12,830 nucleotides of DNA from Candidatus Parcubacteria bacterium (GTDB lineage: Bacteria > Patescibacteriota > Patescibacteriia > PEXW01). The position numbers and the translations under genes were made by a program. Of this stretch, positions 1-12,733 are shown piece by piece (position 1 is the first letter of the stretch; each line of letters opens with the position of its first letter). The DNA is taken from NCBI GenBank assembly GCA_003597955.1, contig QZJU01000009.1, positions 1-12,830 on the forward strand, written 5' to 3'. The notes under the pieces are model-generated. The model did no database searches, was not told the origin of the DNA, and worked only from the letters and a program-made list of their open reading frames with translations.

Positions 1-1510
1 GATAGTTTATCCGCGCCGCTTTGAAAAAGCCCGAACGATCAAAGTCTTCGTTTTGACTAAAAAATTTTTCAACCAGCTTTGCTTTAGCTTTACTGTTTGC
101 CGTCAAATCGCCATGGCCGTAATAAACCGTACGGCCGGCCCAGCCGGGCAAACGATTGCTGTCAAAAGGTCGGGCCAGGACCACGGCGTCAGGCGCGGAA
201 TTTTTTTTAAACCATTCGTACCCGGCAATAATATTTTTGGAAATCGTGACTGGTTCCTGGTTTACGGAGTTGAACCAGAGATCACGGCCCAAATGGTAAA
301 GGCTGGTCACCAAAGCCAGCATCACGGCAAAAGTCAGGCCCAGACTGGCCAGAGAAATTTTTACCAGAGAACTGCTTAATCGGCTTTTAAGATACTTAAC
401 CAATCTGCCTAAACCAAAAACCGCCAAAACCACCAAAGGAATCAACCAGCCTTCCTGCATCCGGCGCTGATAGGGAAAATACGGCAAATACAAAAGCAAC
501 GGCACAATGCCGGCCCAGGCTAAAATTATTTGCGCCCGGCTGGTTTGGATTTTAAAAACTTTTGAAAGTCCGAGCGCCGCAAAAATTATTGGTATTAAAA
601 ACGCCGGTAAATACCACCAAGGCGCCGGGGAAACCGTATGGTTTTGATTAAGCCAACCTTGCAGGGCTGGCTGACTTTGGAAGCTAATTCGGATAATGCC
701 CATGGCTAAAACCCCTGGCCAAACCGTTAAAAACGCGGATTTAATGAAAAAAGCACTGGGTCTTAAAGACTTATCCACAGCCCATTTTATCCCCAGCCAA
801 GCCGTTAAAATTCCGGCAAAAAGGAACACATCGTACGGGTGAATTACGGCCAATAGCAGCACCAAACCCGCCGATGCTTTTGTATACTTCAGATCGCGGT
901 TTTCCAGGCCTTTTTCAAAAATCAGCAAACTGCCCAAAAGCAGACAAAGGGCCATTAAAAAAAGCGGATTATGGTAAACCGTTAAAAACGGCGAGGATTC
1001 CGGCACCCACATATCCACAGGGATGGCAATGTGCTCAATGGCCCAGGTCAGGTCTTTAATTGGAATAAAAACGCCAAAACCCGTGATAAACATCAGGCTG
1101 CCTACGGTTAACATTCTTAGGCGCGGATTAAGAATTACGCCGGCGATGAATTTATAAGTTAAATAAATAAATAAAACCCCAAAGCCAATCCGCGCCAGCT
1201 GATATATGAGAGGGGTAGAAAGGCTCAAGAGGTTTGCCAGCTGGCCTAATAAAAACCATTGAGGCGTAAACACGGTGGGCGTCTGCGCCTCTGAACTGTA
1301 CAAATTCCGGCCGACCACTTGGTTTTGGCGGCCCTGCTCGATAAAAGAATAGTAAACCGAGACATCGCCGGGTGTTAAGTGATGAATGCCGGTATACACT
1401 CTTAATTGCGGGGTCTTAACTGCATTCACAAAATACGGCAGGCTGGTAATGGCCACAATGATCGCGCTTAGGCAAAATAAAAAAATTTTTTCTTTAGGTT
1501 CAAGTTTCAT
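1..1510 (-). CDS. Large multi-span membrane protein, probable GT-C-type glycosyltransferase (3' end cut by window)
   Basis: An open frame of 503 codons begins at ATG 1510-1508 and stays open to base 1, so the C-terminus is missing. The protein starts with a transmembrane segment (about residues 9-29) followed by a loop with an acidic residue (D49 in LTPGD) and then many hydrophobic segments up to about residue 408. This is the layout of GT-C enzymes, which take sugars from polyprenyl-phosphate donors outside the membrane. Other visible motifs are HPYDV (224-228) and YQRRMQEG (347-354). After the last span comes a soluble part with YEWFKKN (431-437) and YYGHGDLT (463-470). The start overlaps the stop of the upstream GT2 gene by 4 bp (ATGA), which implies translational coupling. 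I see no Shine-Dalgarno site. The exact family is not recognised. A GT-C role is inferred from topology and neighbours. Confidence 0.8.
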   Translation of the reverse strand, partial: MKLEPKEKIFLFCLSAIIVAITSLPYFVNAVKTPQLRVYTGIHHLTPGDVSVYYSFIEQGRQNQVVGRNLYSSEAQTPTVFTPQWFLLGQLANLLSLSTPLIYQLARIGFGVLFIYLTYKFIAGVILNPRLRMLTVGSLMFITGFGVFIPIKDLTWAIEHIAIPVDMWVPESSPFLTVYHNPLFLMALCLLLGSLLIFEKGLENRDLKYTKASAGLVLLLAVIHPYDVFLFAGILTAWLGIKWAVDKSLRPSAFFIKSAFLTVWPGVLAMGIIRISFQSQPALQGWLNQNHTVSPAPWWYLPAFLIPIIFAALGLSKVFKIQTSRAQIILAWAGIVPLLLYLPYFPYQRRMQEGWLIPLVVLAVFGLGRLVKYLKSRLSSSLVKISLASLGLTFAVMLALVTSLYHLGRDLWFNSVNQEPVTISKNIIAGYEWFKKNSAPDAVVLARPFDSNRLPGWAGRTVYYGHGDLTANSKAKAKLVEKFFSQNEDFDRSGFFKAARINY

Positions 1511-2241
1511 AAAAGTCTGCCGGTCAATGAGCGCCAACGCAGGCCGATGAGCGAAAAAATATAATCAATGATGGTTTTAAAAACCTTGACTTTGCTTTTT
1601 CTGGCCCCGGGGCGCGTTTCAACCCAAGTGACTGGAATTTCAATTATTTTTAATTTTTTTCTTTCGGCCAAAAATAATAATTCGGTGTCAAAAAACCAAT
1701 TGTTGTCTTTGATTAACGGCAATAATTTTATGGCCAAAGTTTTTTTAATGGCTTTAAAACCGCACTGGGCATCTTTGGCTTTTAAACCAATGATCAGCTT
1801 GGTCAAGATATTATAGCCGATTGAGGTGATGCTCCGACCCAATGACCTTTCCACTTTCGCGCCTTTGGCATAACGCGAACCAATGGCGATGTCCGCGCCC
1901 TGTTTGGCCACCGCGTCAATTGTGGGCTTGACCGCATCGAGAGCGACGGCCAGATCCACATCCATATACAAAGCAATGTCAAAATCCAAATTCAGCCAGG
2001 CCTGCCTTAAAGCATAGCCGCGACCTTTGATGGGCAAACGATAATAATCTAAATTCTGATACTGCTTTTGCAAACCCGAAACCACGGCTGAAGTTTCATC
2101 GGTTGAGGCATTGTCAACCACCACCAATTTCCAAATATACTCTGATAAATTTTTCTGCGCGATTTTTTTCAGATTTTCAATCGACCAGGCTAAAACCTTG
2201 GCTTCATTGTAGGCGGGCAGCAAAAGCGCGATTTTTTTCAT
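1507..2241 (-). CDS. GT2 family polyprenyl-phosphate sugar synthase (dolichyl-phosphate mannose/glucose synthase-like)
   Basis: This 244-residue protein has the full GT-A fold signature of the DPM1/Alg5-like branch of GT2. It shows PAYNEA (9-14) at the nucleotide-binding start, VVDNASTDET (41-50), a canonical DxD-type metal/nucleotide-sugar site MDVD (93-96), GSRY (121-124), CGFKA (160-164) and WFFDTELL (182-189). Family members move mannose or glucose from GDP- or UDP-sugar to a polyprenyl phosphate at the cytoplasmic face. It has no C-terminal membrane anchor, so it resembles the soluble or peripheral class. Its ATG overlaps the stop of the Gpi18-like gene by 4 bp, and its own stop overlaps the next gene by 4 bp. 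It probably supplies lipid-linked sugar to the membrane transferases around it. The sugar cannot be read from sequence. Confidence 0.93.
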   Translation of the reverse strand: MKKIALLLPAYNEAKVLAWSIENLKKIAQKNLSEYIWKLVVVDNASTDETSAVVSGLQKQYQNLDYYRLPIKGRGYALRQAWLNLDFDIALYMDVDLAVALDAVKPTIDAVAKQGADIAIGSRYAKGAKVERSLGRSITSIGYNILTKLIIGLKAKDAQCGFKAIKKTLAIKLLPLIKDNNWFFDTELLFLAERKKLKIIEIPVTWVETRPGARKSKVKVFKTIIDYIFSLIGLRWRSLTGRLL

Positions 2242-3515
2242 ATAGGTTCCCGTTTTTTAGCCATTTGACTGTACCAGGTAATGGTCAAAATGAAAACCAG
2301 TAAATTTACGATGGCCACGAATAGCGACCCGCCCCAGAAATTCTCCAGGCGTCGGCCTTCGTGCTGACTTAAAATTATGAAGACTGCGATTAGGTTCCAG
2401 AGAAAGGTTAAAGACAAAATCCCAAAAAGCCAACGGACTTTTTTTAGGGCCGGCAGAATCGGGATCAGCAAGGCGAAAATCGGAAATAAATACCTTTCAT
2501 GCATTTCCGTGGGCAACATAAAAAAAGCGAAAGCCAAAAACGCCGCGGCTAGCCACAGGCCGGTTTCGGTTTTCACCCGATTTCGAAACCACAAAGCAAA
2601 AACCACGGCGGCGAAAAACAATAGAAAACCGATAGTAATAAGCTGCAGGCCCAGAAACACTTGGGTGTCGGATTTGGTTATCCAATAACCGCCGGAAAAA
2701 AGCCACCAAAAATTAAAAGCGTTTGCGGAAACAAATTTGTAAGTCCCGGGTGAAGTAAAAATTACGGCAAAAACATCAGCGGCTTTACCGGCCAGGAAAA
2801 ACGGCAAAGAAAGCAGGCTCACGGTTCCAGCGCCAACCCAAAACGCTTTAAACATGGTCTTGATGCTGGAATTTTTGTAAATTTCGTAAAACAAAAGTGG
2901 CAATAGCACGATGCTCTGCATTTTAATGAAAAAAGCCAGGGTGAAAACCGCCGTTGCCCACAAATACTTCTTTTTTGTCATCAACCAGACGCACAAAACC
3001 ATAAAAAAGGTGTTGATGCTGTCAATCTGCCCCCAGCCAGCTGATTCAAAAATGACTGCTGGGTGGAAGGCGTATATGCCGGCTGCGACCAAGGCCCATT
3101 TATCCCCAAACTTTTTCCTGACCAGCCAAGCCAAAAAACCGGCGAGTAATAAATCAAACAGGATCGCCGGGGTTTTGTAAATTATTGAGGCCACGGGCGT
3201 TAAGACGGTGCCAAGAGGTTCAAATTGGCTATGAACCGATTCTAAAAACCACAAAACATACATATAGGGCGGGAGATAGTTTGGTCTTGCCACATTAAAA
3301 AACCAAGGATGATCTACTGAATGTTCATATACATTCGTTAGACCGTTGTGATGAGCGCTATAGCCCCATAATTGAAACAGCAAGGTATCGCCTTTTCCCT
3401 CCAGGGTTTTTTGGGGCGCTAGGGCAAACCTAAAAATCCCCGCGGCTATCACGATTAAACACAGTAAAATTTTGAAATTGCTTCGGGTTTGAATGGCTGA
3501 ATTTTGCAAAACCAT
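2238..3515 (-). CDS. Gpi18-like GT-C mannosyltransferase, polytopic membrane protein
   Basis: The 425 residues are mostly hydrophobic spans. An acidic first-loop site lies at GKGDTLLFQLW (40-50, D43), where GT-C enzymes place their catalytic acid. The motif HPAVIFESAGWGQIDS (151-166), with WGQIDS at 161-166, and HERYLFP (339-345) are hallmarks I associate with the Gpi18-related mannosyltransferase group (COG5542) and with related Alg6/Alg8-type folds. Such enzymes use polyprenyl-phosphate-linked mannose or glucose as donor on the outer membrane face. The gene lies 15 bp after the GT39-like gene and overlaps the following GT2 gene by 4 bp, so donor-making and donor-using enzymes are translated together. 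No Shine-Dalgarno site is visible upstream of the ATG. Acceptor and sugar are unknown. Confidence 0.85.
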   Translation of the reverse strand: MVLQNSAIQTRSNFKILLCLIVIAAGIFRFALAPQKTLEGKGDTLLFQLWGYSAHHNGLTNVYEHSVDHPWFFNVARPNYLPPYMYVLWFLESVHSQFEPLGTVLTPVASIIYKTPAILFDLLLAGFLAWLVRKKFGDKWALVAAGIYAFHPAVIFESAGWGQIDSINTFFMVLCVWLMTKKKYLWATAVFTLAFFIKMQSIVLLPLLFYEIYKNSSIKTMFKAFWVGAGTVSLLSLPFFLAGKAADVFAVIFTSPGTYKFVSANAFNFWWLFSGGYWITKSDTQVFLGLQLITIGFLLFFAAVVFALWFRNRVKTETGLWLAAAFLAFAFFMLPTEMHERYLFPIFALLIPILPALKKVRWLFGILSLTFLWNLIAVFIILSQHEGRRLENFWGGSLFVAIVNLLVFILTITWYSQMAKKREPI

Positions 3516-3530
3516 AAATTTACTAATTTC

Positions 3531-5087
3531 CTAATCGGCAGAAATAATCCAAGCTAAATTGTAGCGGTCCAAAATTTTAATTGGAATCTTTTCCAAAAGC
3601 CGGTTGCCTAGGGGCTGTGCCGTGGCTACTTCCACATAAATAATGCCTGGGTTTTGAGTTTTGCACTCACTATACCGGCAAAAAACATAGCGGCCGAGGC
3701 GCGTGGTTCGATACCAGCCTTTAGAATTTGTTTCAAAAATATGTTCGCTTTGGACTTTAGCCGGATCCCAAGGCTTAAAAAGCATAAAAAATATCTGGGG
3801 CTGATTCAGGTTGTCATCAACTACTCTGATTTCTGAAGCATTGGGATATTTCTCTTCCAAAACCTTTACCACCCTGCCAATTTCCGGCAAAAATGTCGGA
3901 TTAACCCAAGCAAAAGTTTTGTTAATAAAGTATGCAGGCTGCCAAAAAATAAATAAACCCATGGCCGCGCAAGCCAAGCAGCCGCTGACCGCGAGCGGAA
4001 GAACGAAAAGTCTTTTTCTTTCGATGGCAAAAATTTTGAAGAAATTGACCAAGCCCCAGGCGCCCACAATCTGCAAAGGGCCCAAAAGCAAAATTGCTCG
4101 AGTCTGGCTGGGATTAAAATCCGTCAGAATTGAAGGCAAAATCGAAAAACCCAACCACAAGCCCAAGAGCCACTGAACCGGTTTGGGTATATGAAACTTT
4201 TTGGCGGTCATAAAAAAGAGCGGGATACCAAAAAAGACCATGAGCCAATCCAAAGGTCCGGCGGTTAAATGCCCTAGCAGCCATTCAAAGGGATTTAAAT
4301 ACGAACCAAAATTCAAAAACAAATTCCAAAACCAGTTAGGCTCGCCAAAAACTGAAATTTCATTGAACCTGCCAGCGTCGGTAAAATTTTGAATTTGCCA
4401 AAAAGCCAGCGGGATTAGCAACAAAATGCCCATTGCCACAGCCCAAATTAACCAATGACGATGTTGAAGAATTCTTCGCCAGAAAACAACTGCCAGGATT
4501 ACAATCATGGCCGGAATAAATAATTTTGAGACTGGGTAGCCGTATAAGCCAGTCACCCAGGCGATGCTGGTTAGGAAAAAATATGCCGGCTTGTTATCCA
4601 ACGCCCGCAAAAAAGCAGCCAAGCCTATGCAAAACAGGGCTGTCGCCCAAATGGCCTCATGGCCATAACGGCTGAAGGTCAAATGCCAAGGCGAAACCGC
4701 TAGCACAAAACCAGTCACGCAGGCGACTTTCCAGGATTGGCTAAGCTTAAACGCAATATAAATGACCGCGACAACCGTTAGGATACCAGCAATGGCTGAC
4801 GGAAGCCGTCCGGCCAGCGGGCTGGGCCCGAGGAGCGCAACAAAGGGCATGGCAGCGTAAGCCGAGATTGCCGAGGCGTTGTCGCGCTCTTTACCAAAGG
4901 CTTCCAAAGTTAGAGGCCACCGATTGCCATGTTGGTCGTGTCCGGTTTTTAAAAGACTGTAAGCTTCGTAAACACGATCAGCCTCATCTTGATTTACGCC
5001 ATAAGGCAAGCCGTTCAAGTTTACCAAACGCAAAAGCACCGCGACCAGAATTATCGTAAAAAAAATTATTTTTTTTTGGGTGGTCAT
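3531..5087 (-). CDS. GT39/ArnT-like polyprenyl-phosphate-dependent glycosyltransferase, membrane protein
   Basis: This 518-residue protein has an N-terminal span (about 6-22), then the first-loop acidic pair NQDEA (33-37; D34, E35) typical of the PMT/ArnT (GT39) branch of GT-C. R95 with LPSAIAG (96-102) and SPWHLTFSRYGHEA (133-146) are also patterns of that branch. Many hydrophobic spans follow to about residue 390. A soluble C-terminal region of roughly 120 residues ends the protein, as in other long ArnT-like enzymes. The family transfers a sugar from a polyprenyl-phosphate donor to lipid, glycan or protein on the outer face. The start overlaps the upstream GT2 stop by 4 bp (ATGA 5087-5084). 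The stop is TAG, 15 bp before the next start. The acceptor cannot be deduced. Confidence 0.88.
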   Translation of the reverse strand: MTTQKKIIFFTIILVAVLLRLVNLNGLPYGVNQDEADRVYEAYSLLKTGHDQHGNRWPLTLEAFGKERDNASAISAYAAMPFVALLGPSPLAGRLPSAIAGILTVVAVIYIAFKLSQSWKVACVTGFVLAVSPWHLTFSRYGHEAIWATALFCIGLAAFLRALDNKPAYFFLTSIAWVTGLYGYPVSKLFIPAMIVILAVVFWRRILQHRHWLIWAVAMGILLLIPLAFWQIQNFTDAGRFNEISVFGEPNWFWNLFLNFGSYLNPFEWLLGHLTAGPLDWLMVFFGIPLFFMTAKKFHIPKPVQWLLGLWLGFSILPSILTDFNPSQTRAILLLGPLQIVGAWGLVNFFKIFAIERKRLFVLPLAVSGCLACAAMGLFIFWQPAYFINKTFAWVNPTFLPEIGRVVKVLEEKYPNASEIRVVDDNLNQPQIFFMLFKPWDPAKVQSEHIFETNSKGWYRTTRLGRYVFCRYSECKTQNPGIIYVEVATAQPLGNRLLEKIPIKILDRYNLAWIISAD

Positions 5088-5866
5088 GTGGCTGACAAAA
5101 CCGAGTTTTTTGAAAATTTTTGACTGGGCCGCAACCGAAGGCGCGCCAAAAGATATTCAGCCAATGCGCGTAAAATTCCCAAACCATATTTAACCCCCGC
5201 AAAAAAACCGACTGTGTGGGCATCTTTAAAATACCGGGTGGGTATCGGCACCTCTCGAATCCGAAAACCGCAAATCTTAAGTTGAATAATCATTTCCGTA
5301 TCAAAAACAAAATCATTGCTGTTTTTTTTAAATGGTACAGTCTCTAAAACTTTTCGGCTGTAGGCGCGAAATCCCGAATGATATTCGCTCAAGCGCAAAC
5401 CCAAAACTAAGTTTTCTATGGCGGTTAAAAAAACATTGGCAATCCTTTTCCACCAAGGCATACCGCCCTTTTTGGCGCCCCCGCGCCAGAGCATGCGCGA
5501 ACCAAAAACCACATCGCTTTCGCCGCGCAAAATCGGCAAAACCATTTCCGGCACCAGCACGGGGTCATATTGGTGATCAGGGTGGATCATAATAATCACA
5601 TCAGCACCACGTTTTAAAGCTTCTGCATAACAAGTTTTTTGGTTGCCGCCATAGCCCAGATTTTTTTCATGCACGGTCGGATGTAAACCAAGCGTTTTGG
5701 CCTTGGCTACCGTGTTGTCTGAGCTGGCGTCATCAACCAAAACTATTTCATCAACCCAGTCATTGGGAATGTCATTAACCGTTTTCTCTAGAGTTTTTTC
5801 TGCTTCAAAAGCCGGCAAAACCGCAATTATCTTGTGCTGATCGCGCACACTCTTTAAGTTCCACAT
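5084..5866 (-). CDS. GT2 family polyprenyl-phosphate sugar synthase with HPDHQ in place of a canonical DxD
   Basis: The 260 residues show the GT2 dolichyl-phosphate sugar synthase pattern: LPAFEAEKTL (17-26), VLVDDASSDNT (42-52), NLGYGGNQ (69-76), IHPDHQYDP (94-102), GSRM (122-125), YHSGFRAYS (162-170) and NDFVFDTEM (184-192). At the metal site the usual D-x-D is HPDHQ (95-99), a variant found in some bacterial members of the branch. It shares only the general fold with the other GT2 in this operon, so the two probably make different carrier-linked sugars or act on different carriers. The gene starts 44 bp after the MptB-like gene, the widest gap in the operon. A TATAAAAT stretch about 10 bp before the ATG could be an internal -10 element, but I see no good -35. 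It overlaps the GT39-like gene by 4 bp. Confidence 0.92.
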   Translation of the reverse strand: MWNLKSVRDQHKIIAVLPAFEAEKTLEKTVNDIPNDWVDEIVLVDDASSDNTVAKAKTLGLHPTVHEKNLGYGGNQKTCYAEALKRGADVIIMIHPDHQYDPVLVPEMVLPILRGESDVVFGSRMLWRGGAKKGGMPWWKRIANVFLTAIENLVLGLRLSEYHSGFRAYSRKVLETVPFKKNSNDFVFDTEMIIQLKICGFRIREVPIPTRYFKDAHTVGFFAGVKYGLGILRALAEYLLARLRLRPSQKFSKNSVLSAT

Positions 5867-5910
5867 ATGCTGTATTTTATAGGAAATCCGCTCAAAAAAC
5901 TAATTGGACT

Positions 5911-7158
5911 TCAAATAAACAGATTTTCAAAAAACACCAAACAGGCCCAAAAAATCGGGATTATGCCGACCCAGCGCAGAGCTGGCTTTTTGGGCAAAAT
6001 CAAAGCCATGGGCCAAAGCCAGAGCAAATACCAAGCCTGCACATAGCTTGAAGCAAAAAATAAGTAAGTCGCTAATATAAAGAGGGTGGCATGGGCAATT
6101 TCCAAGCGCTGATTTTTTATTCGTCGCAAGAGGTATAAAAATATGCCCGCAAAAATAACCCAGCCAGTCACTCGAGCGAAAATTTCTGGGTTTTGGGCGG
6201 TACCGCCAAACAGATACGAGCCGTAAAACAGAATCGATTGGGGGAAAAATATGGGCGGGTAAAATAGCCCGTTTTGTTGGCTTAAGCCTCGGAATGTTTC
6301 GGGCCCAAACCAAAAGGGCGCGAAGCTTATGAGTAAGATAAAAAAAATCACCCAAAGATATTTCCAAACTCGAAAGTTTGGATTAAAATTTTTAAAATTC
6401 AGCAAAAGGCCGGGTAAAACCAAAATCGGTATGTATTTTAAAATAATGCCCAAGGCCACGGCCACGGCTGACTTAATCGGCTTAGCCAACCAATAAATTG
6501 CCAACACTAAAGCCAAACCAATAAAAACATCGTTATGGGCGTCGGCCACGGCTTCGACTAACACAATCGGACTCCAAGCAAAAAGCGCGGCCAGGCTGGG
6601 GCCAGACTTTTTCGCGATGACCGCTGCGGTTAACAAAACCGCCAGCAGACCGAAAATTTTATAAATAAAAATTATTAAATCCGCTTTTAAAGTCAGAAAG
6701 CCGATGCCCTTGGCCAACAACTGCCAAAGCGGGCCATAGGCGCTGGGCCAGGCTTGCCAAGCTGGATCCACCAACTGCAAAATCGTGTCATTGCCCAAGG
6801 TATTTGGCGTCAAAACATAGGGATTGCCCAAAGCCGCGACTTTTACATTCGCCACATAGGCAAAAATGTCTCCGGCAAAAACGCTTAAAGTCAGCAAAAA
6901 GGGCGCGGCTAAAATTCCGCTGACTAAAAGCACTCTTTTAAAACTAATTTCAAAGCCGGCTTTGACTTTAAGAAATAACCAAATATATAGGAGCGCGGCC
7001 AGCGCCCAGCCCGTGATTTTTAAAACCAAAGCAAGATTTTCGGGCAAGCCCCAAAGCAAGCTTGTAAATTTTCCAGACAAGGCAATAGCGCTGGCCGCGG
7101 TCAGGCCTAGGCCCAAGCCCCAAAAATTCAAAGGGAAACTATTCGCCTTGCCATTCAT
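5911..7158 (-). CDS. MptA/MptB-like alpha-1,6-mannosyltransferase, GT-C membrane protein
   Basis: This 415-residue protein is almost wholly transmembrane segments. After two or three spans comes GDIFAYVANVKVAALGNPY (96-114), in which D97 would be the first-loop catalytic acid. WPSAYGPLW (137-145) and DAHNDVFIGL (206-215) follow. This set resembles the MptA/MptB-type polyprenol-phosphomannose-dependent mannosyltransferases, known from mycobacterial lipomannan synthesis, though the bacterium here is clearly not an actinobacterium. The likely role is extending a mannose-containing surface glycan on the outer membrane face. The start is supported by a near-perfect Shine-Dalgarno sequence 9 nt upstream, inside the end of the preceding gene, which it overlaps by 20 bp. 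There is no other Met near the N-terminus. The specificity is inference. Confidence 0.83.
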   Translation of the reverse strand: MNGKANSFPLNFWGLGLGLTAASAIALSGKFTSLLWGLPENLALVLKITGWALAALLYIWLFLKVKAGFEISFKRVLLVSGILAAPFLLTLSVFAGDIFAYVANVKVAALGNPYVLTPNTLGNDTILQLVDPAWQAWPSAYGPLWQLLAKGIGFLTLKADLIIFIYKIFGLLAVLLTAAVIAKKSGPSLAALFAWSPIVLVEAVADAHNDVFIGLALVLAIYWLAKPIKSAVAVALGIILKYIPILVLPGLLLNFKNFNPNFRVWKYLWVIFFILLISFAPFWFGPETFRGLSQQNGLFYPPIFFPQSILFYGSYLFGGTAQNPEIFARVTGWVIFAGIFLYLLRRIKNQRLEIAHATLFILATYLFFASSYVQAWYLLWLWPMALILPKKPALRWVGIIPIFWACLVFFENLFI

Positions 7159-8731
7159 ATATCCAAACCTCCTTGTCTTCGTAAGCCAGATTAACGCCGG
7201 GGGTGTTTTTTACATTTTCGTGCATTTCCGTGTGATCTTTTTCAATCAAGATCCAGCGGGTGTTAAACATTTCAAAAACCTCACCCAAATTTTCCCGCCT
7301 TTCGCCCAGAGTGGTCTTGGCCCATGCCCAGTACCTGGCCTGGTCTTGCCGGTACAAAAAAGTCGGGTCCAGGCCGGCAATATAGGCGTTAACCGTATTG
7401 TAATAAAACAAGACCGGAAAATCGTCCCAGTCGCTGTGAAAAACCACTTCACCCGGCTGGGAATGCTCGGCCAGCCAGGTGGCGGACGCTTGGTAGTGCG
7501 TGGCGTTGATGCCGGAATTTAAATTGTCATAATTGGCTTTTTGATCGCGCCAGATTACCAAAGGCAAACTGATTAGAAAATAAGCGATCAACGCCGCGCT
7601 GATTATTTTGTGGGTTTTGGCTTGGGTTTTTAAAAAAACTTTAAGTTTTTGCCAAGCCTCTGAACTAACGGCCTCGTGCAGCATGGTCGCGGCGGACAGC
7701 GCCAAAAATGGCACGGCGTATTCAACATAGCGCCGCGACTTAAGGGTAAAAACCGAAAAAAACACAGCCAGCCAAAACATGGTCCAGCCCCTGACCGTCG
7801 AACGCCGGAGGTTGTTCAGATAAAAAATCACCGCCAAAACAAATGGCGCAACCACGACGATGTTGTTGCCGATAAAATCCGTGAAGCCATAGGGATACCA
7901 CTCCCCGCCCACGCCGATTATCTTCCGGTAATTAACCAAGCCGATTTGCACGGCTTGTTCCCAGATAAAATTAAAAGTGTTGGGAAAAAACGGATTTAGA
8001 AGCAAGCCGACCGCCGCGCCTGACAAAACGCATAAAAACACCTGCAAGGGCTGGTATTTTTTTAAACCCGGCCAATTCCACCAAGGCCGGGGCAACAAGG
8101 GTTTTAAAATTCCAGGCTGGTTTTGGCGTTGAAAAAAATCGTACGCCAGGTTTACTAATAAAAAAATGCCGGCCGCCGCGATTAAGACCAAAAACCCGCC
8201 GTACAATAAAACAAAAAACCAGGCGATTAAAAAGGTTGCCAATTTTTTCTTGGCAAACATCAGCCAAATGCCGATTAGCAGGGTGGCCAATGAAAGACTG
8301 GGTGCCTTGGCCAAGCTTATCCGAAAAGTAAAGGGTGTCGCCGCCAATAGTACCAAAGCCCAAACCAAGACATGCCGCAAGCCCTGTTTTATCAAAAACC
8401 AAGCCGCTACTGTAATTAATAAAGCCGCAAAAAACACCGTGGCCAATTTAATGCCAGCTAATGGATCCAAAAGCCGGACAAATGGGATTAAGGCTACATG
8501 ATAAAGCCAATGCTGATCAATGTAGTGCTGGCCCAAAGTCGTGAATGGCAACCACGGAAACTCCCTGACTGCCCCCTGCTGGCTGGTCAAGACGCCGAGA
8601 CGCGCATGATAAAAAGAATCCGGGTCGGCGAAAATCGCGTTGTTTTGTAAGACAAAAAATACCCCAAAAGAAACCACAAAAACCCCAAAAAGCAAAAATA
8701 ATTTTTCATTCTGCCTGACAAAGCTGGACAT
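7139..8731 (-). CDS. STT3-like GT-C membrane protein with C-terminal soluble domain; first gene of the glycosylation operon
   Basis: The 530 residues comprise an N-terminal span (about 11-29), a first outer loop ADPDSFYHARLG (35-46; D36, D38, H42) and DQHWLYH (72-78). Further hydrophobic spans run to about residue 393, followed by a soluble C-terminal domain. The first-loop D-x-D...H pattern resembles the DPYYHLR region of archaeal and bacterial oligosaccharyltransferases (STT3/AglB/PglB). The canonical WWDYG is absent. At the same place, just past the last span, there is SDWDDFP (433-439), followed by GLDPTFLY (453-460). Family assignment is therefore tentative: an STT3-like or other GT-C enzyme acting on lipid-linked sugar at the outer face. 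It is preceded by a probable promoter and overlaps the MptB-like gene by 20 bp. No Shine-Dalgarno site precedes the ATG. Confidence 0.82.
   Translation of the reverse strand: MSSFVRQNEKLFLLFGVFVVSFGVFFVLQNNAIFADPDSFYHARLGVLTSQQGAVREFPWLPFTTLGQHYIDQHWLYHVALIPFVRLLDPLAGIKLATVFFAALLITVAAWFLIKQGLRHVLVWALVLLAATPFTFRISLAKAPSLSLATLLIGIWLMFAKKKLATFLIAWFFVLLYGGFLVLIAAAGIFLLVNLAYDFFQRQNQPGILKPLLPRPWWNWPGLKKYQPLQVFLCVLSGAAVGLLLNPFFPNTFNFIWEQAVQIGLVNYRKIIGVGGEWYPYGFTDFIGNNIVVVAPFVLAVIFYLNNLRRSTVRGWTMFWLAVFFSVFTLKSRRYVEYAVPFLALSAATMLHEAVSSEAWQKLKVFLKTQAKTHKIISAALIAYFLISLPLVIWRDQKANYDNLNSGINATHYQASATWLAEHSQPGEVVFHSDWDDFPVLFYYNTVNAYIAGLDPTFLYRQDQARYWAWAKTTLGERRENLGEVFEMFNTRWILIEKDHTEMHENVKNTPGVNLAYEDKEVWIYEWQGE
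7168..7174 (-). promoter_or_regulatory. Strong Shine-Dalgarno site for the MptB-like gene
   Basis: On the minus strand AAGGAGG lies 9 nt before ATG 7158-7156. It is embedded in the last codons of the upstream 530-residue gene. It fixes the start of the MptB-like gene and is the only perfect Shine-Dalgarno match I see in the operon. The other starts rely on coupling or weak signals. Confidence 0.8.
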
Positions 8732-8737
8732 AATTTA

Positions 8738-8766
8738 AGTATATAGGTTTTGGCTTTAATTGTAGA
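8738..8766 (-). promoter_or_regulatory. Probable sigma-70-type promoter of the glycosylation operon, possibly leaderless
   Basis: Read on the minus strand, TCTACA (8766-8761) and TATACT (8743-8738) are separated by 17 bp. They match 4 of 6 and 5 of 6 consensus positions. The -10 element ends only 6 nt before the ATG of the 530-residue gene, so transcription would begin at or next to the start codon. This fits the absence of a ribosome-binding site there. Confidence 0.4.
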
Positions 8767-8863: not shown

Positions 8864-8871
8864 GACTTCTT

Positions 8872-8913
8872 AAAAAGCCCTCCCCGCCAAGCATGGCTGT
8901 GGGGAAGGCTTTT
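8872..8913 (-). terminator. Intrinsic terminator of the phosphoglucose/phosphomannose isomerase gene
   Basis: Arms AAAAGCCCTCCCC (8873-8885) and GGGGAAGGCTTTT (8901-8913) pair at 12 of 13 positions. The loop holds a second small hairpin, GCCA-AGCA-TGGC (8886-8897). Read on the minus strand, the stem ends in GGGCTTTTT. It lies about 20 bp past the isomerase stop codon and separates that gene from the glycosylation operon. Confidence 0.85.
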
Positions 8914-8932: not shown

Positions 8933-9997
8933 TTAATGTCCGAGCTTGTGTTTGAAATAATTAACCCACTTAATGTCCGCGGGATTAATGTGGTATTGCA
9001 AGCCCAGGCCCAGGGTTAAATTTCCACCAAAAATTAAGAGTTCGATCGCTTGAGACAGCCGGGTCTTAGCGCGGGCTTTATACTCCACAACCTTTGCGCC
9101 GTTTCTTTGAATTATTTCTTTGGTCAAGCGCATCCGCTTTTGAATCCGCGGGGCATACAAACTGGAATTTAGTATTAAAAAGGTCGTGTTTCGGATGTTT
9201 TGTTTGGGGTGAGTTAAGCCTTCCATCAAGTGGTGATTCAGTTCTGGAACGGCAAACCAAGTGGCAAAGGTTTTAGCGGTTTCGTTTAATTGGTTGGCAA
9301 TGACATGGGCGGCGCCGCTCAAGTGTTCAGCTCCAGCGACTAAAACCGCGCGCTGGAGTAATTTCTGGCTCATTTTCGCCGCCGGGCTCGAGGCAACGCC
9401 CAAGTTCATTTGTCTGCCGATTTTTTTCGTGAATGCGAGCGTCTCTTGAATTTCCTTGCTGCCTAGCTCCAAAAGCCCGGTTTTTTGCAAAAGCCCGATT
9501 AAGCCAAAAACCGCATAACCCAAACCGATTCGAGGCTGATCCGAGGGATTATGAACTGGCCTAAAAATATAGCTTGGGATTTTATGGGTTTTGGCGATGT
9601 TGGCCAAGCTTCCGCCAGCGCAAATCACTAACAGCTTGGCTTTGGCTTTTTTTGCAAACTTATACGCGGCCAACGTTTCTTCGGTCGTGCCCGAATAGCT
9701 AGCTAAAATCACCAGAGTTTCAGAATCAACCCAGGCAGGCAGTTTATAATCATTAATAATGATAATCGGTGCTTTCAGGCTTTCGGCGCAGGCGCTTAAA
9801 ACCACATGTGCACCCAAAGCAGAGCCGCCCATACCGGCCAAAACCACGCGCTTTACCTTAATAAACTTCGGCAGGCGCAGACGACGGGTTTCGACAAAGG
9901 CTTGCTGGGCCTGGTCGGGAAAGCTATTGACCGACTCAAAAACTCTTTTCGTGTCGTACTTTTTTAAAAGCGGTGAAAACAGCAATTTCATGCTCAT
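8933..9997 (-). CDS. Bifunctional phosphoglucose/phosphomannose isomerase (SIS domain)
   Basis: The enzyme interconverts glucose-6-phosphate or mannose-6-phosphate with fructose-6-phosphate in the cytoplasm. The 354-residue protein has the twin SIS-domain layout of the archaeal/bacterial PGI/PMI family. It shows GMGGSA (55-60), SYSGTTEETL (100-109), QPRIGLGY (154-161), NETAK (238-242) and PELNHH (251-256). E239 and H255 are 16 residues apart, the same spacing as the catalytic Glu and His I recall for the Pyrobaculum enzyme (E203, H219). Length is close to the family norm. A terminator follows 20 bp after the stop, so it is transcribed apart from the glycosylation operon. By role it could supply mannose-6-phosphate for GDP-mannose and the lipid-linked sugars used there. 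A second ATG at 9991-9989 is a better-placed start than 9997. Confidence 0.93.
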   Translation of the reverse strand: MSMKLLFSPLLKKYDTKRVFESVNSFPDQAQQAFVETRRLRLPKFIKVKRVVLAGMGGSALGAHVVLSACAESLKAPIIIINDYKLPAWVDSETLVILASYSGTTEETLAAYKFAKKAKAKLLVICAGGSLANIAKTHKIPSYIFRPVHNPSDQPRIGLGYAVFGLIGLLQKTGLLELGSKEIQETLAFTKKIGRQMNLGVASSPAAKMSQKLLQRAVLVAGAEHLSGAAHVIANQLNETAKTFATWFAVPELNHHLMEGLTHPKQNIRNTTFLILNSSLYAPRIQKRMRLTKEIIQRNGAKVVEYKARAKTRLSQAIELLIFGGNLTLGLGLQYHINPADIKWVNYFKHKLGH

Positions 9998-10261: not shown

Positions 10262-10987
10262 ATGTCTGGGCATTCAAAATGGTCAACCATCAAAAGGCAA
10301 AAAGGCGCGACTGACGCAAAGCGCGCCGTACTTTTCACCAAGCTCGGTCACGCCATTACCGCTTCCGCGCGCCAGGGCGGCGCCGATCCGGAAACGAATT
10401 TCCGCTTGCGTTTGGCGATTGAAAAGGCGCGGGCGGCTAACATGCCGAATGAAAATGTTGACCGCGCCGTCAGGCGCGGCTTGGGCGCTGATACCGGCTT
10501 GCAGCTCGAGGAAATTTTATATGAGGGTTTTGGGCCTGGCGGGTCTGCCCTTTTAATCCAAGCGATTACCAACAATCGAAACCGCACGGTTGGCGAAATC
10601 CGCGCGCTCTTAGGAAAACACGAAGGCAGTTTGGGCGGCGCGAATAGCGTGGCCTGGCAATTTGAAAACAGGGGTGTTGTCAGAATTGAGGCGGAAAGCT
10701 TGCGGGGCTTGGACAAAGAAAAAATCATCTTAGAAGCGATTGAGGCCGGAGCCGAAGATGTGCAAGATTCGGCTGAGGGCTTGGCCATTATCGCGCCGAC
10801 GGATAAATTGGCCGGCATGCAAAAATTCTTTTCTGACCGCCAAATCACCGTGGCTTCGGCGGATACGGAATTTGTGGCCAAGCAAAATCTAAAATTAAAC
10901 GACGCTGACGCAGAAAAACTCCATAACTTGATGGAGGCCTTGGAAAATCATGAGGATGTTTCAGCGGTATGGACCAATGCCGGTTGA
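10262..10987 (+). CDS. yebC: YebC/TACO1 family protein
   Basis: The 241-residue protein opens with the family hallmark MSGHSKWSTIKRQK and continues with the three-domain YebC layout: ARQGGADPETNFRLRLAIEKA (37-57), NMPNENVDRAVRRG (60-73), YEGFGPGG (88-95), NNRNRTVGEIR (104-114) and GSLGGANSVAWQF (122-134). The length is normal. YebC/TACO1 proteins are reported both as transcription regulators and as translation factors that relieve ribosome stalling, for example on proline-rich stretches. Which role applies here cannot be read from sequence. It is first in an operon with ruvC, a pairing common in bacteria. The strong promoter lies upstream. The ATG has no Shine-Dalgarno site, but the conserved N-terminus makes the start secure. 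Confidence 0.97.
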   Translation: MSGHSKWSTIKRQKGATDAKRAVLFTKLGHAITASARQGGADPETNFRLRLAIEKARAANMPNENVDRAVRRGLGADTGLQLEEILYEGFGPGGSALLIQAITNNRNRTVGEIRALLGKHEGSLGGANSVAWQFENRGVVRIEAESLRGLDKEKIILEAIEAGAEDVQDSAEGLAIIAPTDKLAGMQKFFSDRQITVASADTEFVAKQNLKLNDADAEKLHNLMEALENHEDVSAVWTNAG

Positions 10988-11465
10988 GCCAAAAACTATT
11001 TTAGGAATTGACCCGGGTTTCGGCCGGGTCGGCTGGGGGGTAATTAAATTTGTTTCAAATTCTTTAAAATTCGAGGCTTGTGGGACGATTGAAACCACCA
11101 ATCAAACCGCGTTTGTTGGCCGGCTCAAGCGTATCCGCACGGGTTTGATCGAAATTATAAAAAAATACCAACCTGACCTGGCTGGCGTGGAAAGACTGTT
11201 TTTTTCCAAAAACATCAAAACCGCCATGCAGGTTAGCGAAGCTCGGGGGATCATCCTGCTTACCCTGGCCGACAAAAAAATAAAAATCTTTGAATGCACG
11301 CCCCAAGCCGTAAAGCAGGCGCTCGTCGCTTATGGCCGGGCGGAAAAACTTCAAATTCAGCGTATGGTAAAAACCCTTTTAAAACTGCCGGTGATTCCAA
11401 AGCCAGACGACGCGGCCGACGCTTTGGCGATTGCAATTACCACGGCCTTTGAGCGAAAGACATGA
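10977..11465 (+). CDS. ruvC: Holliday junction endonuclease RuvC
   Basis: RuvC is the dimeric nuclease that resolves four-way DNA junctions at the end of homologous recombination. From the Met at 10977 the protein is 162 residues, the family's usual size. It keeps all four acidic catalytic residues: D12 in ILGIDPGFGRVGWG, E72 in VERLFF, and D145 and D148 in DDAADALA. The frame extends upstream to ATG 10950 (171 residues). That start has GGAGG 12 nt before it (10933-10937) but adds a non-conserved leader, so I prefer 10977, which overlaps the yebC stop by 11 bp. The partners ruvA and ruvB are not adjacent. Its stop overlaps the GT4 start by 4 bp. Confidence 0.96.
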   Translation: MPVEPKTILGIDPGFGRVGWGVIKFVSNSLKFEACGTIETTNQTAFVGRLKRIRTGLIEIIKKYQPDLAGVERLFFSKNIKTAMQVSEARGIILLTLADKKIKIFECTPQAVKQALVAYGRAEKLQIQRMVKTLLKLPVIPKPDDAADALAIAITTAFERKT

Positions 11466-12733
11466 AACACATTGCCCTTATTAATGTGCACTGCGACCCT
11501 TTGGAACAACTCGGTTCGGCGGAAGCCGGCGGACAAAATGTTTATGTTTTTCACCTGGCCAAGGCTTTGGGCAAACTTGGTTATCATGTGGATGTTTTTT
11601 CTCGCCTGAATTCGCGACTGAAAAAAGAACGGGTCAGACTGACCAAACACGTTCAATTCATTCGCTTGCGCGCTGGTCACCGACACTTCATTCCGAAAAA
11701 CCGTTTAGGCCCTCTTCTGCCGGAATTCATCAGTAATTTTTTGGCTTGGCAAAAAGCCAAAAACGCTAAATACGACCTTTTGCACTCCCACTATTGGGAA
11801 GCGGGCTGGGTTACCTTGCAGCTAAAATATATTTTGCGCTTGCCCCAGCTCCACACTTTTCACTCTTTGGGGATCATGCGCTACAACGCGCTAAAGGGCT
11901 ATCGCGAACAAAGTTTGAATACCGCCGAAATCCGACACCGCATTTCCGTGGAAAAAGAAATTACCCAAAAAGCCAATTGCATAGTCAGCACCAGCCCCTA
12001 TGAGCGCGAATACTTGGAAAAACATTACTGCTGCCATCCGGATAAAATTCGCGTGGTGCCGTGCGGCGTGGATTTAATCCGTTTTAAACCAGTTGACCGC
12101 TGGCAAGCCAGAAAAAAAATCAAGGCGAGTCCCGACGAAAAAATCATTCTTTACACCGGCCGGATTGAATGGCGCAAGGGCATTGGAACCTTGATTATTG
12201 CGGTCGCCAAGCTTTTTAAACACCATCCGGAACTTCGTAAAAAAGTGCGGCTTTATATTGTAGGCGGAAACTTAGGCCGCCGGGCCGAGCCTGAAGTCAG
12301 GGACGAAATCCGGCGCTTAAAAGATGTCTGCCGGGAATACAAAATCCGCGACCGCGTGGAATTCACGGGCGCGGTCCAACAGGAAAGGCTGCATTACTAT
12401 TACTCGGCGGCAAATGTTTGCGTGATCCCCTCTTATTATGAACCTTTTGGCATGGTGCCTTTGGAAGCCATGGCTTGCAAAGTGCCGGTCATTGCTTCAG
12501 ACACCGGGGGCCTGCCCTACAGCGTCCGGGATGGCAAATCTGGAATTTTGGTACCAGTCCGTAATCCGGGCGCCATTTCCAACCAACTTTACAAAACCCT
12601 GACTGATAAGGAATTTTCTGAAAAATTAGTCAGGGGCGGAAGGGAATTAGTCAAAACCACCTTTAGCTGGAAAATCATCGCCAAGCAAGTGGCGCACGCT
12701 TATGAGCGGGTGCTGGAGAAAAATAAAAAATAA
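11462..12733 (+). CDS. GT4 family glycosyltransferase (MshA / sucrose-phosphate-synthase-like)
   Basis: This 423-residue soluble GT-B enzyme has two Rossmann-like halves. The N-terminal half shows the acceptor/loop motif EAGGQNVYVFHLAKALG (21-37) and LLHSHYWEAG (106-115). The C-terminal half shows YTGRIEWRKG (231-240; R234 and K239 contact the donor phosphate in relatives) and the nucleotide-sugar E-x7-E signature EPFGMVPLE (327-335), followed by VIASDTGGLP (343-352). The GGQNVYV start is typical of the branch holding MshA, sucrose-phosphate synthase and related retaining enzymes. The acceptor is unknown. It overlaps ruvC by 4 bp (ATGA), so it is translated with a recombination gene. A terminator follows 10 bp after the stop. 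A role in cell-surface or storage sugar synthesis is an inference. Confidence 0.93.
   Translation: MKHIALINVHCDPLEQLGSAEAGGQNVYVFHLAKALGKLGYHVDVFSRLNSRLKKERVRLTKHVQFIRLRAGHRHFIPKNRLGPLLPEFISNFLAWQKAKNAKYDLLHSHYWEAGWVTLQLKYILRLPQLHTFHSLGIMRYNALKGYREQSLNTAEIRHRISVEKEITQKANCIVSTSPYEREYLEKHYCCHPDKIRVVPCGVDLIRFKPVDRWQARKKIKASPDEKIILYTGRIEWRKGIGTLIIAVAKLFKHHPELRKKVRLYIVGGNLGRRAEPEVRDEIRRLKDVCREYKIRDRVEFTGAVQQERLHYYYSAANVCVIPSYYEPFGMVPLEAMACKVPVIASDTGGLPYSVRDGKSGILVPVRNPGAISNQLYKTLTDKEFSEKLVRGGRELVKTTFSWKIIAKQVAHAYERVLEKNKK

Follow-up and report, generated by a model that had tools for sequence, protein, structure and literature searches.

A seven-gene operon of GT-C and GT2 glycosyltransferases with a constant, predicted STT3-fold gene in a Parcubacteria genome and its relatives

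Background

What would a Patescibacteria cell assemble with an operon in which five membrane glycosyltransferases stand in a row with two soluble ones, and is such a set of genes fixed or does it vary between lineages? The question was raised by a stretch of 12,830 nucleotides (the window, i.e., the whole stretch of DNA that was analyzed), in which an initial annotation had recognized a dense run of lipid-linked-sugar enzymes. The Patescibacteria that have been cultivated grow attached to other microbes (PMC12206443), so that their surface glycans are likely to bear on contact, on phages, and on host range.

Methods

A set of 80 named loci was fetched with a profile of the first gene of the operon (gene A), so that all of them contain A by selection. 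Among the lineages covered, which we take to be GTDB class ABY1, are Kerfeldbacteria, Buchananbacteria, Kuenenbacteria, Uhrbacteria, Falkowbacteria, Komeilibacteria, and Magasanikbacteria. The glycosylation genes following A (the cassette) were counted by script, and these counts are approximate, as the script halts at some chance reverse ORFs; for instance, L132 was miscounted as empty due to a chance reverse-strand ORF and has in fact GT2 and G-type genes. The conserved motifs of A were placed by sequence or motif.

Results

Seven consecutive minus-strand ORFs, A to G, span positions 8731..2 of the window. The lipid-linked-sugar operon of seven same-strand genes with junctions of -20 to +44 bp was confirmed as initially annotated (A/B -20, B/C +44, C/D -4, D/E +15, and E/F -4 bp). 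Taking the ATG at 1510 as the start of G gives an F/G junction of -4 bp, and taking the upstream TTG at 1537 gives -31 bp; the ATG at 1510 forms an ATGA overlap with the stop codon of F, one of three in the operon. Five of the seven products are polytopic membrane proteins with 9–11 segments each (crude hydropathy), while the remaining two are GT2 enzymes. The last gene, G, is truncated by the window edge. Bases 1–99 of contig C12 are the exact reverse complement of window positions 1–99, and in the joined frame G terminates at C12:209, which leaves 16 bp to a convergent multi-TM DUF2079 gene (L003, contig C12:226-2151; PF09852, E 6.8e-48). The join of the window's contig (C15) with C12 itself rests on this 99-bp overlap and is supported by relatives showing the same gene order. 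Extending the contig beyond the window edge, as had been proposed, completed G; given the join, the operon is complete.

At the other end, the operon is preceded by pgi, which encodes a bifunctional phosphoglucose/phosphomannose isomerase-like protein (8933..9997, minus strand; NF006425 E 4.8e-71, yet below its cut-off, and PF10432 over cut-off). A likely intrinsic terminator of pgi, AAAGCCTTCCCC...GGGGAGGGCTTTTT (8871..8913, minus strand), was read directly in the sequence and is not in the scan list; it is a hairpin with T's behind it (8913-8871) and separates pgi from the operon. A consensus scan placed a promoter-like site (TCTACA-17-TATACT, 8738..8766, minus strand) directly upstream of the start codon of A. 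Since the hairpin with its T's closes pgi and the promoter-like site lies right before A, the operon probably begins at A. The site is a candidate by consensus alone, and the leader would be very short or absent; the -10-like hexamer, some 7 bases ahead of the start codon (window 8731-8766), suggests a leaderless transcript.

Farther out in this left frame lie the divergent genes yebC and ruvC (10262..11465, plus strand), which we presume to be correctly named from their sequences and which recur in relatives. A GT4 glycosyltransferase gene (11462-12733) overlaps ruvC by 4 bp and is closest to MshA/sucrose-phosphate-synthase models, under their cut-offs. Beyond the DUF2079 gene, contig C12 (L003) encodes small T4SS_pilin-family proteins with three TM segments (2230-4012; PF18895), and one T4SS_pilin-family protein beside the locus has a peptidoglycan-binding domain. 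In relatives, small three-TM genes form tandem arrays with up to eight members; the Pfam identity applies to the copies of the window's genome. A nucleotidyl transferase (PF00483; galU-like) is encoded further along the same contig as DUF2079. None of the seven operon genes is a Wzx/Wzy flippase or polymerase by Pfam, which agrees with the initial annotation; Wzx-type, Wzy_C, and GtrA genes are present in the genome outside the locus, with the Wzx/Wzy copies on other contigs.

Gene A (7139..8731, minus strand; 530 aa) is the constant gene of the locus and encodes a divergent STT3-fold GT-C enzyme. Its AlphaFold model (pLDDT 95.4) has STT3 (8pn9) as best VIA match (Z 27.4, rmsd 4.4, 480 residues aligned), followed by PMT (about 21), DPY19 (20.1), and ArnT (19.3), and Foldseek matched it to STT3 with an E-value of about 3e-9. 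The best fold matches (STT3, AglB, PglB) cover nearly the whole chain including the C-terminal domain, while the mycobacterial enzymes AftA, AftD, EmbB, and PimE also match at lower Z. The initial label "STT3-like" was thus upheld by comparing the predicted fold with solved structures. The likeness is seen by structure only: A has no match to the STT3 Pfam model PF02516 at E ≤ 1, a sequence search of A against the PDB retrieved no STT3, and the single marginal Pfam match (Glyco_transf_22) is confined to the window protein among 51 homologues. Canonical STT3 was discarded as an explanation, as PF02516 gives no match in the window's own genome and few, mostly sub-cut-off ones in the phylum (46 of 380 Patescibacteria genomes at E ≤ 0.001, 16 over cut-off, nearly all partial among the matches listed).

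Oligosaccharyltransferases are recognized by two DXD motifs, TIXE/SVSE, and WWDYG (PMC8342417), as well as a pyrophosphate-binding Arg (PMC7226087). Invariant in the 51 homologues of A are D38, Y41, H42, H78, R137, L140, K142, E277, R334, W435, G453, and D455. The first DXD, on EL1, is present as D36-P-D38 (D36 in 48/51, D38 in 51/51), and an invariant acidic residue on EL1 is also found in G (D58, 37 homologues). The second DXD/DXE is absent; the stretch assigned to EL2 from the sequence is R137-x-x-L140-x-K142, and across the 51 homologues columns 142–149 lack any conserved acidic residue. Placed by motif, GVGGE277 may correspond to TIXE/SVSE and R334 to the TM Arg; E277 and R334 are invariant in the 51. 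WWDYG is not intact and is replaced, by motif placement, with SDWDDFP (W435 in 51/51, D436 in 44/51). D72-x-H74-x3-H78 is invariant or nearly so in the family and could still bind a metal. DPY19 has an STT3-type variable module and is active without a metal site (PMC10154233), so that A could function without the second DXD.

Gene G (window 1..1510, then C12 to base 209, minus strand; start ATG 1510, TTG 1537 possible) is a second STT3-fold GT-C gene. Family searches of G gave no convincing family, with no match to the STT3 Pfam model, and the initial annotation had left it unassigned; its standing as a GT-C enzyme holds, and the STT3 fold is now assigned by its model (pLDDT 92.3 over 512 aa), with yeast STT3 (8agc) as best VIA match (Z 22.4, rmsd 5.0, 430 residues aligned), the mycobacterial enzymes AftA, AftD, EmbB, and PimE at lower Z, and a profile match to STT3 8i9p (E 0.0012). 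Both membrane proteins that were folded, A and G, are therefore GT-C, their models matching STT3, ArnT, PMT, Emb, and AftD. A and G are related only at the profile level, in their C-terminal halves (97% probability), and D compares with A at 36% probability; simple tandem duplication was rejected for the window on these grounds, as the initial annotation had argued from differing motifs.

The remaining membrane proteins are more unequal in their assignment. D (3531..5087, minus strand; 518 aa) is a PMT_2 (GT39/ArnT-like) GT-C enzyme (PF13231, 32.5 bits, cut-off 26.1), and in the alignment its first external loop carries an NQDEA motif. E (2238..3515, minus strand; 425 aa) is ALG3/GT87/PMT_2-like, with PF13231 (29.6 bits) and PF05208 (26.4 bits) over cut-off and PF09594 just under. 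Each of the two exceeds at least one GT-C Pfam cut-off, as their initial assignment would predict. B (5911..7158, minus strand; 415 aa) matches no family in Pfam (E ≤ 1) or NCBIfam (E ≤ 0.1), and the MptA/MptB label given to it initially found no profile support. Its one link is to the E family (hhalign, 97% probability, E 2e-11, with small alignments), and by this profile comparison B is a probable GT-C enzyme related to E.

The soluble GT2 proteins are C (5084..5866, minus strand; 260 aa) and F (1507..2241, minus strand; 244 aa), matching PF00535 (E 1.8e-19 and 1.7e-22 for the two). By sequence they resemble dolichol/polyprenyl-phosphate-sugar synthases, in line with the carrier-charging role initially predicted: dolichol-P-mannose synthase 5mlz is the best PDB match of both C (E 8.9e-9) and F (E 5.1e-16), and the NCBIfam models nearest to the two, none of which comes close to its cut-off, include AglJ and PpgS, the best matches of C. 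The initial annotation had further taken GT2/GT-C overlaps as a sign of matched donor-maker/donor-user pairs. Adjacency was discarded as evidence because cassette interiors hold little else, and fusions were used instead: four loci carry an F-type GT2 in fusion with a G-type GT-C, namely L131, L133, L134, and L121 (the last from the same region of the genome as L072), which directly supports the pairing of F with G. The pairing of C with D is not exclusive, as C precedes D in the window and in the close relative G003, while in G027 a C homologue (63% identical) precedes a G-type gene.

In G003, a member of the same family and the nearest usable relative, the order is A-B-(GT2, DUF2142, third membrane protein)-C-D-D-D-E-F-G, and a methyltransferase gene follows A. 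Identities to the window are 66% for A, 44% for B, 79% for C, 42–45% for D, 51% for E, 64% for F, and 43% for G; the 79% of C against the 42–45% of D, together with the triplication of D, fits a conserved donor and diversifying transferases. The gene order, whose conservation in relatives the initial annotation had singled out for checking, thus holds in G003 with insertions and a triplicated D, but class-wide the constant elements are only A, its address, and, in many cases, F/G-type genes.

Of the 57 genomes searched in the family and class, 31 contained A, as did 24 of a phylum-wide sample of 285, where weaker matches are partial. In most of the 80 loci its address is ruvC-yebC-(pgi)-A, facing DUF2079/T4SS-pilin genes; among the 69 loci that could be assessed, ruvC and/or yebC lie upstream in 51 and pgi in 34. 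Where the script found a locus end (51 loci), it lies at convergent DUF2079 or small three-TM genes in 47. The recurrence across the class argues that the arrangement is not due to chance. Within this frame the cassette has 0–8 glycosylation genes by script count; G-type genes occur in about half of the loci with a recognizable end (24/51, likewise by script), an F-type GT2 lies directly 3' of A in 22 loci, and nine of the 51 loci by script, about eight after correction, have no cassette genes, so that A must there take its donor from elsewhere. In a quick tree of A, Kerfeldbacteria, Kuenenbacteria, and most Buchananbacteria group largely by lineage, and the window falls within a 25-row Kerfeldbacteria-rich clade. 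The loci thus have A as the constant gene, a G-type gene that often closes them, and an interior that varies by lineage; there is, in our judgement, an even chance that this is a glycosylation hotspot of the class. The DUF2079 gene forms the right border in about 30 loci.

Discussion

The reading that we favor, though only half persuaded of it, is that polyprenyl-phosphate sugars are consumed step by step on the outer side of the membrane, with A as the constant step and the cassette varying the rest. In the direction of chemistry that we infer, C and F would load single sugars onto polyprenyl phosphate, the presumed carrier, in the cytoplasm, the charged carriers would be flipped (a GtrA-type gene lies elsewhere in the genome), and the five GT-C enzymes would spend them at the outer face, one sugar per step. 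A, presumably the initiator, would most likely catalyze a step common to all, e.g., transfer to an acceptor that may be a surface protein or a lipid, G would use the donor made by F, and B, D, and E would add lineage-specific sugars; swapping the cassette between fixed neighbors would then alter the surface glycan. Counted against this scheme are the best fold matches of A, which are to enzymes transferring oligosaccharides and not monosaccharides as DPY19 and PMT do, the roughly eight cassette-less loci, and the assignment of B by profile comparison. The claim of a complete pathway found no support in our analysis.

The main rival, which we consider rather unlikely, is that A is a true, divergent oligosaccharyltransferase, for which the cassette and enzymes elsewhere would build a lipid-linked oligosaccharide to be transferred en bloc to surface or pilin proteins. 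The near full-length match to STT3, AglB, and PglB would speak for it, as would the possibility to place DPD, GVGGE277, R334, and a DW435D-type motif on the EL1 DXD, TIXE/SVSE, R404, and WWDYG, respectively, the Wzx-type flippase genes in the genome, and the T4SS_pilin-family genes adjoining the locus. The A family, however, has no second DXD, a broken WWDYG, and no PF02516 match, cassettes are missing from about eight loci, and the GT-C and GT2 content suggests stepwise extracytoplasmic transfer; the genome's Wzx-type, Wzy_C, and GtrA genes outside the locus are compatible with stepwise and en bloc transfer alike. A narrower form of the stepwise reading, possible albeit doubtful, makes A a protein-modifying single-sugar transferase like DPY19/PMT, with the other GT-C enzymes extending the sugar or using other acceptors. 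The metal-free DPY19, its STT3-type module (PMC10154233), its Z-score with A and that of PMT, as well as the missing second DXD are consistent with this, and a monosaccharide donor would come from the F-type GT2 that follows A in 22 loci, but STT3 outscores DPY19 and D72-x-H74-x3-H78 might still bind metal.

An envelope lipoglycan or polysaccharide pathway with a lipid acceptor, as in mycobacterial mannan/arabinan synthesis, appears somewhat improbable: AftA, AftD, EmbB, and PimE match both A and G, and GT4 and phosphosugar isomerase genes adjoin the operon, yet STT3 and other protein-modifying enzymes score higher. Returning to A as a protein-modifying enzyme, we regard it as possible, if doubtful, that it founds an undescribed STT3-fold family glycosylating surface proteins in this Patescibacteria class with an altered metal site, in which D72-x-H74-x3-H78 (EL1) perhaps replaces the second DXD. 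If true, this would be a general, diversifying protein-glycosylation system with a swappable cassette in ultrasmall bacteria without recognizable STT3.

Among known systems, STT3/AglB/PglB share with A and G the predicted fold over nearly the full chain and the EL1 acidic motif, and A may also have the TIXE Glu and the TM Arg as well as part of WWD; in contrast, A lacks the second DXD, has a degenerate WWDYG, and escapes PF02516, and the genes of A and G lie in a single operon together with GT2 and further GT-C genes. The DPY19 C-mannosyltransferase and the PMT O-mannosyltransferases have the GT-C fold and use polyprenyl-phosphate monosaccharides, DPY19 without metal ligands, but A scores lower against them than against STT3. 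The mycobacterial Emb/Aft/PimE pathway likewise has several GT-C enzymes working at the outer face with polyprenyl-phosphate sugar donors, although these are of other families and in another taxon. Capsule and O-antigen loci have fixed flanks and a variable interior. The present locus resembles them in its conserved frame and variable glycosyltransferase cassette, and differs in having no Wzx/Wzy, a GT-C and GT2 interior, and an STT3-fold constant gene. The enzyme classes are already known; we found no description of this locus in the open-licence PMC literature, nor of the divergent STT3-fold families, the hotspot architecture, or the F+G-type fusion, which does not in itself prove novelty.

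The class-wide address, with its turnover around a constant A, may serve as a marker for surface diversification, and A is a defined enzyme for testing protein glycosylation in a phylum whose PF02516 matches are mostly partial and sub-cut-off. Variation in copy number was also seen among the loci. Tandem copies of A, unaccompanied by other cassette genes, occur in L099, L104, L120, L157, and L067, and G-type genes form tandem pairs or triplets in L065, L086, L102, L111, and L158. Methyltransferase-like cassette genes occur in L059 (2274-2909), L060, L061, and L078, the one in L059 being Pfam-confirmed.
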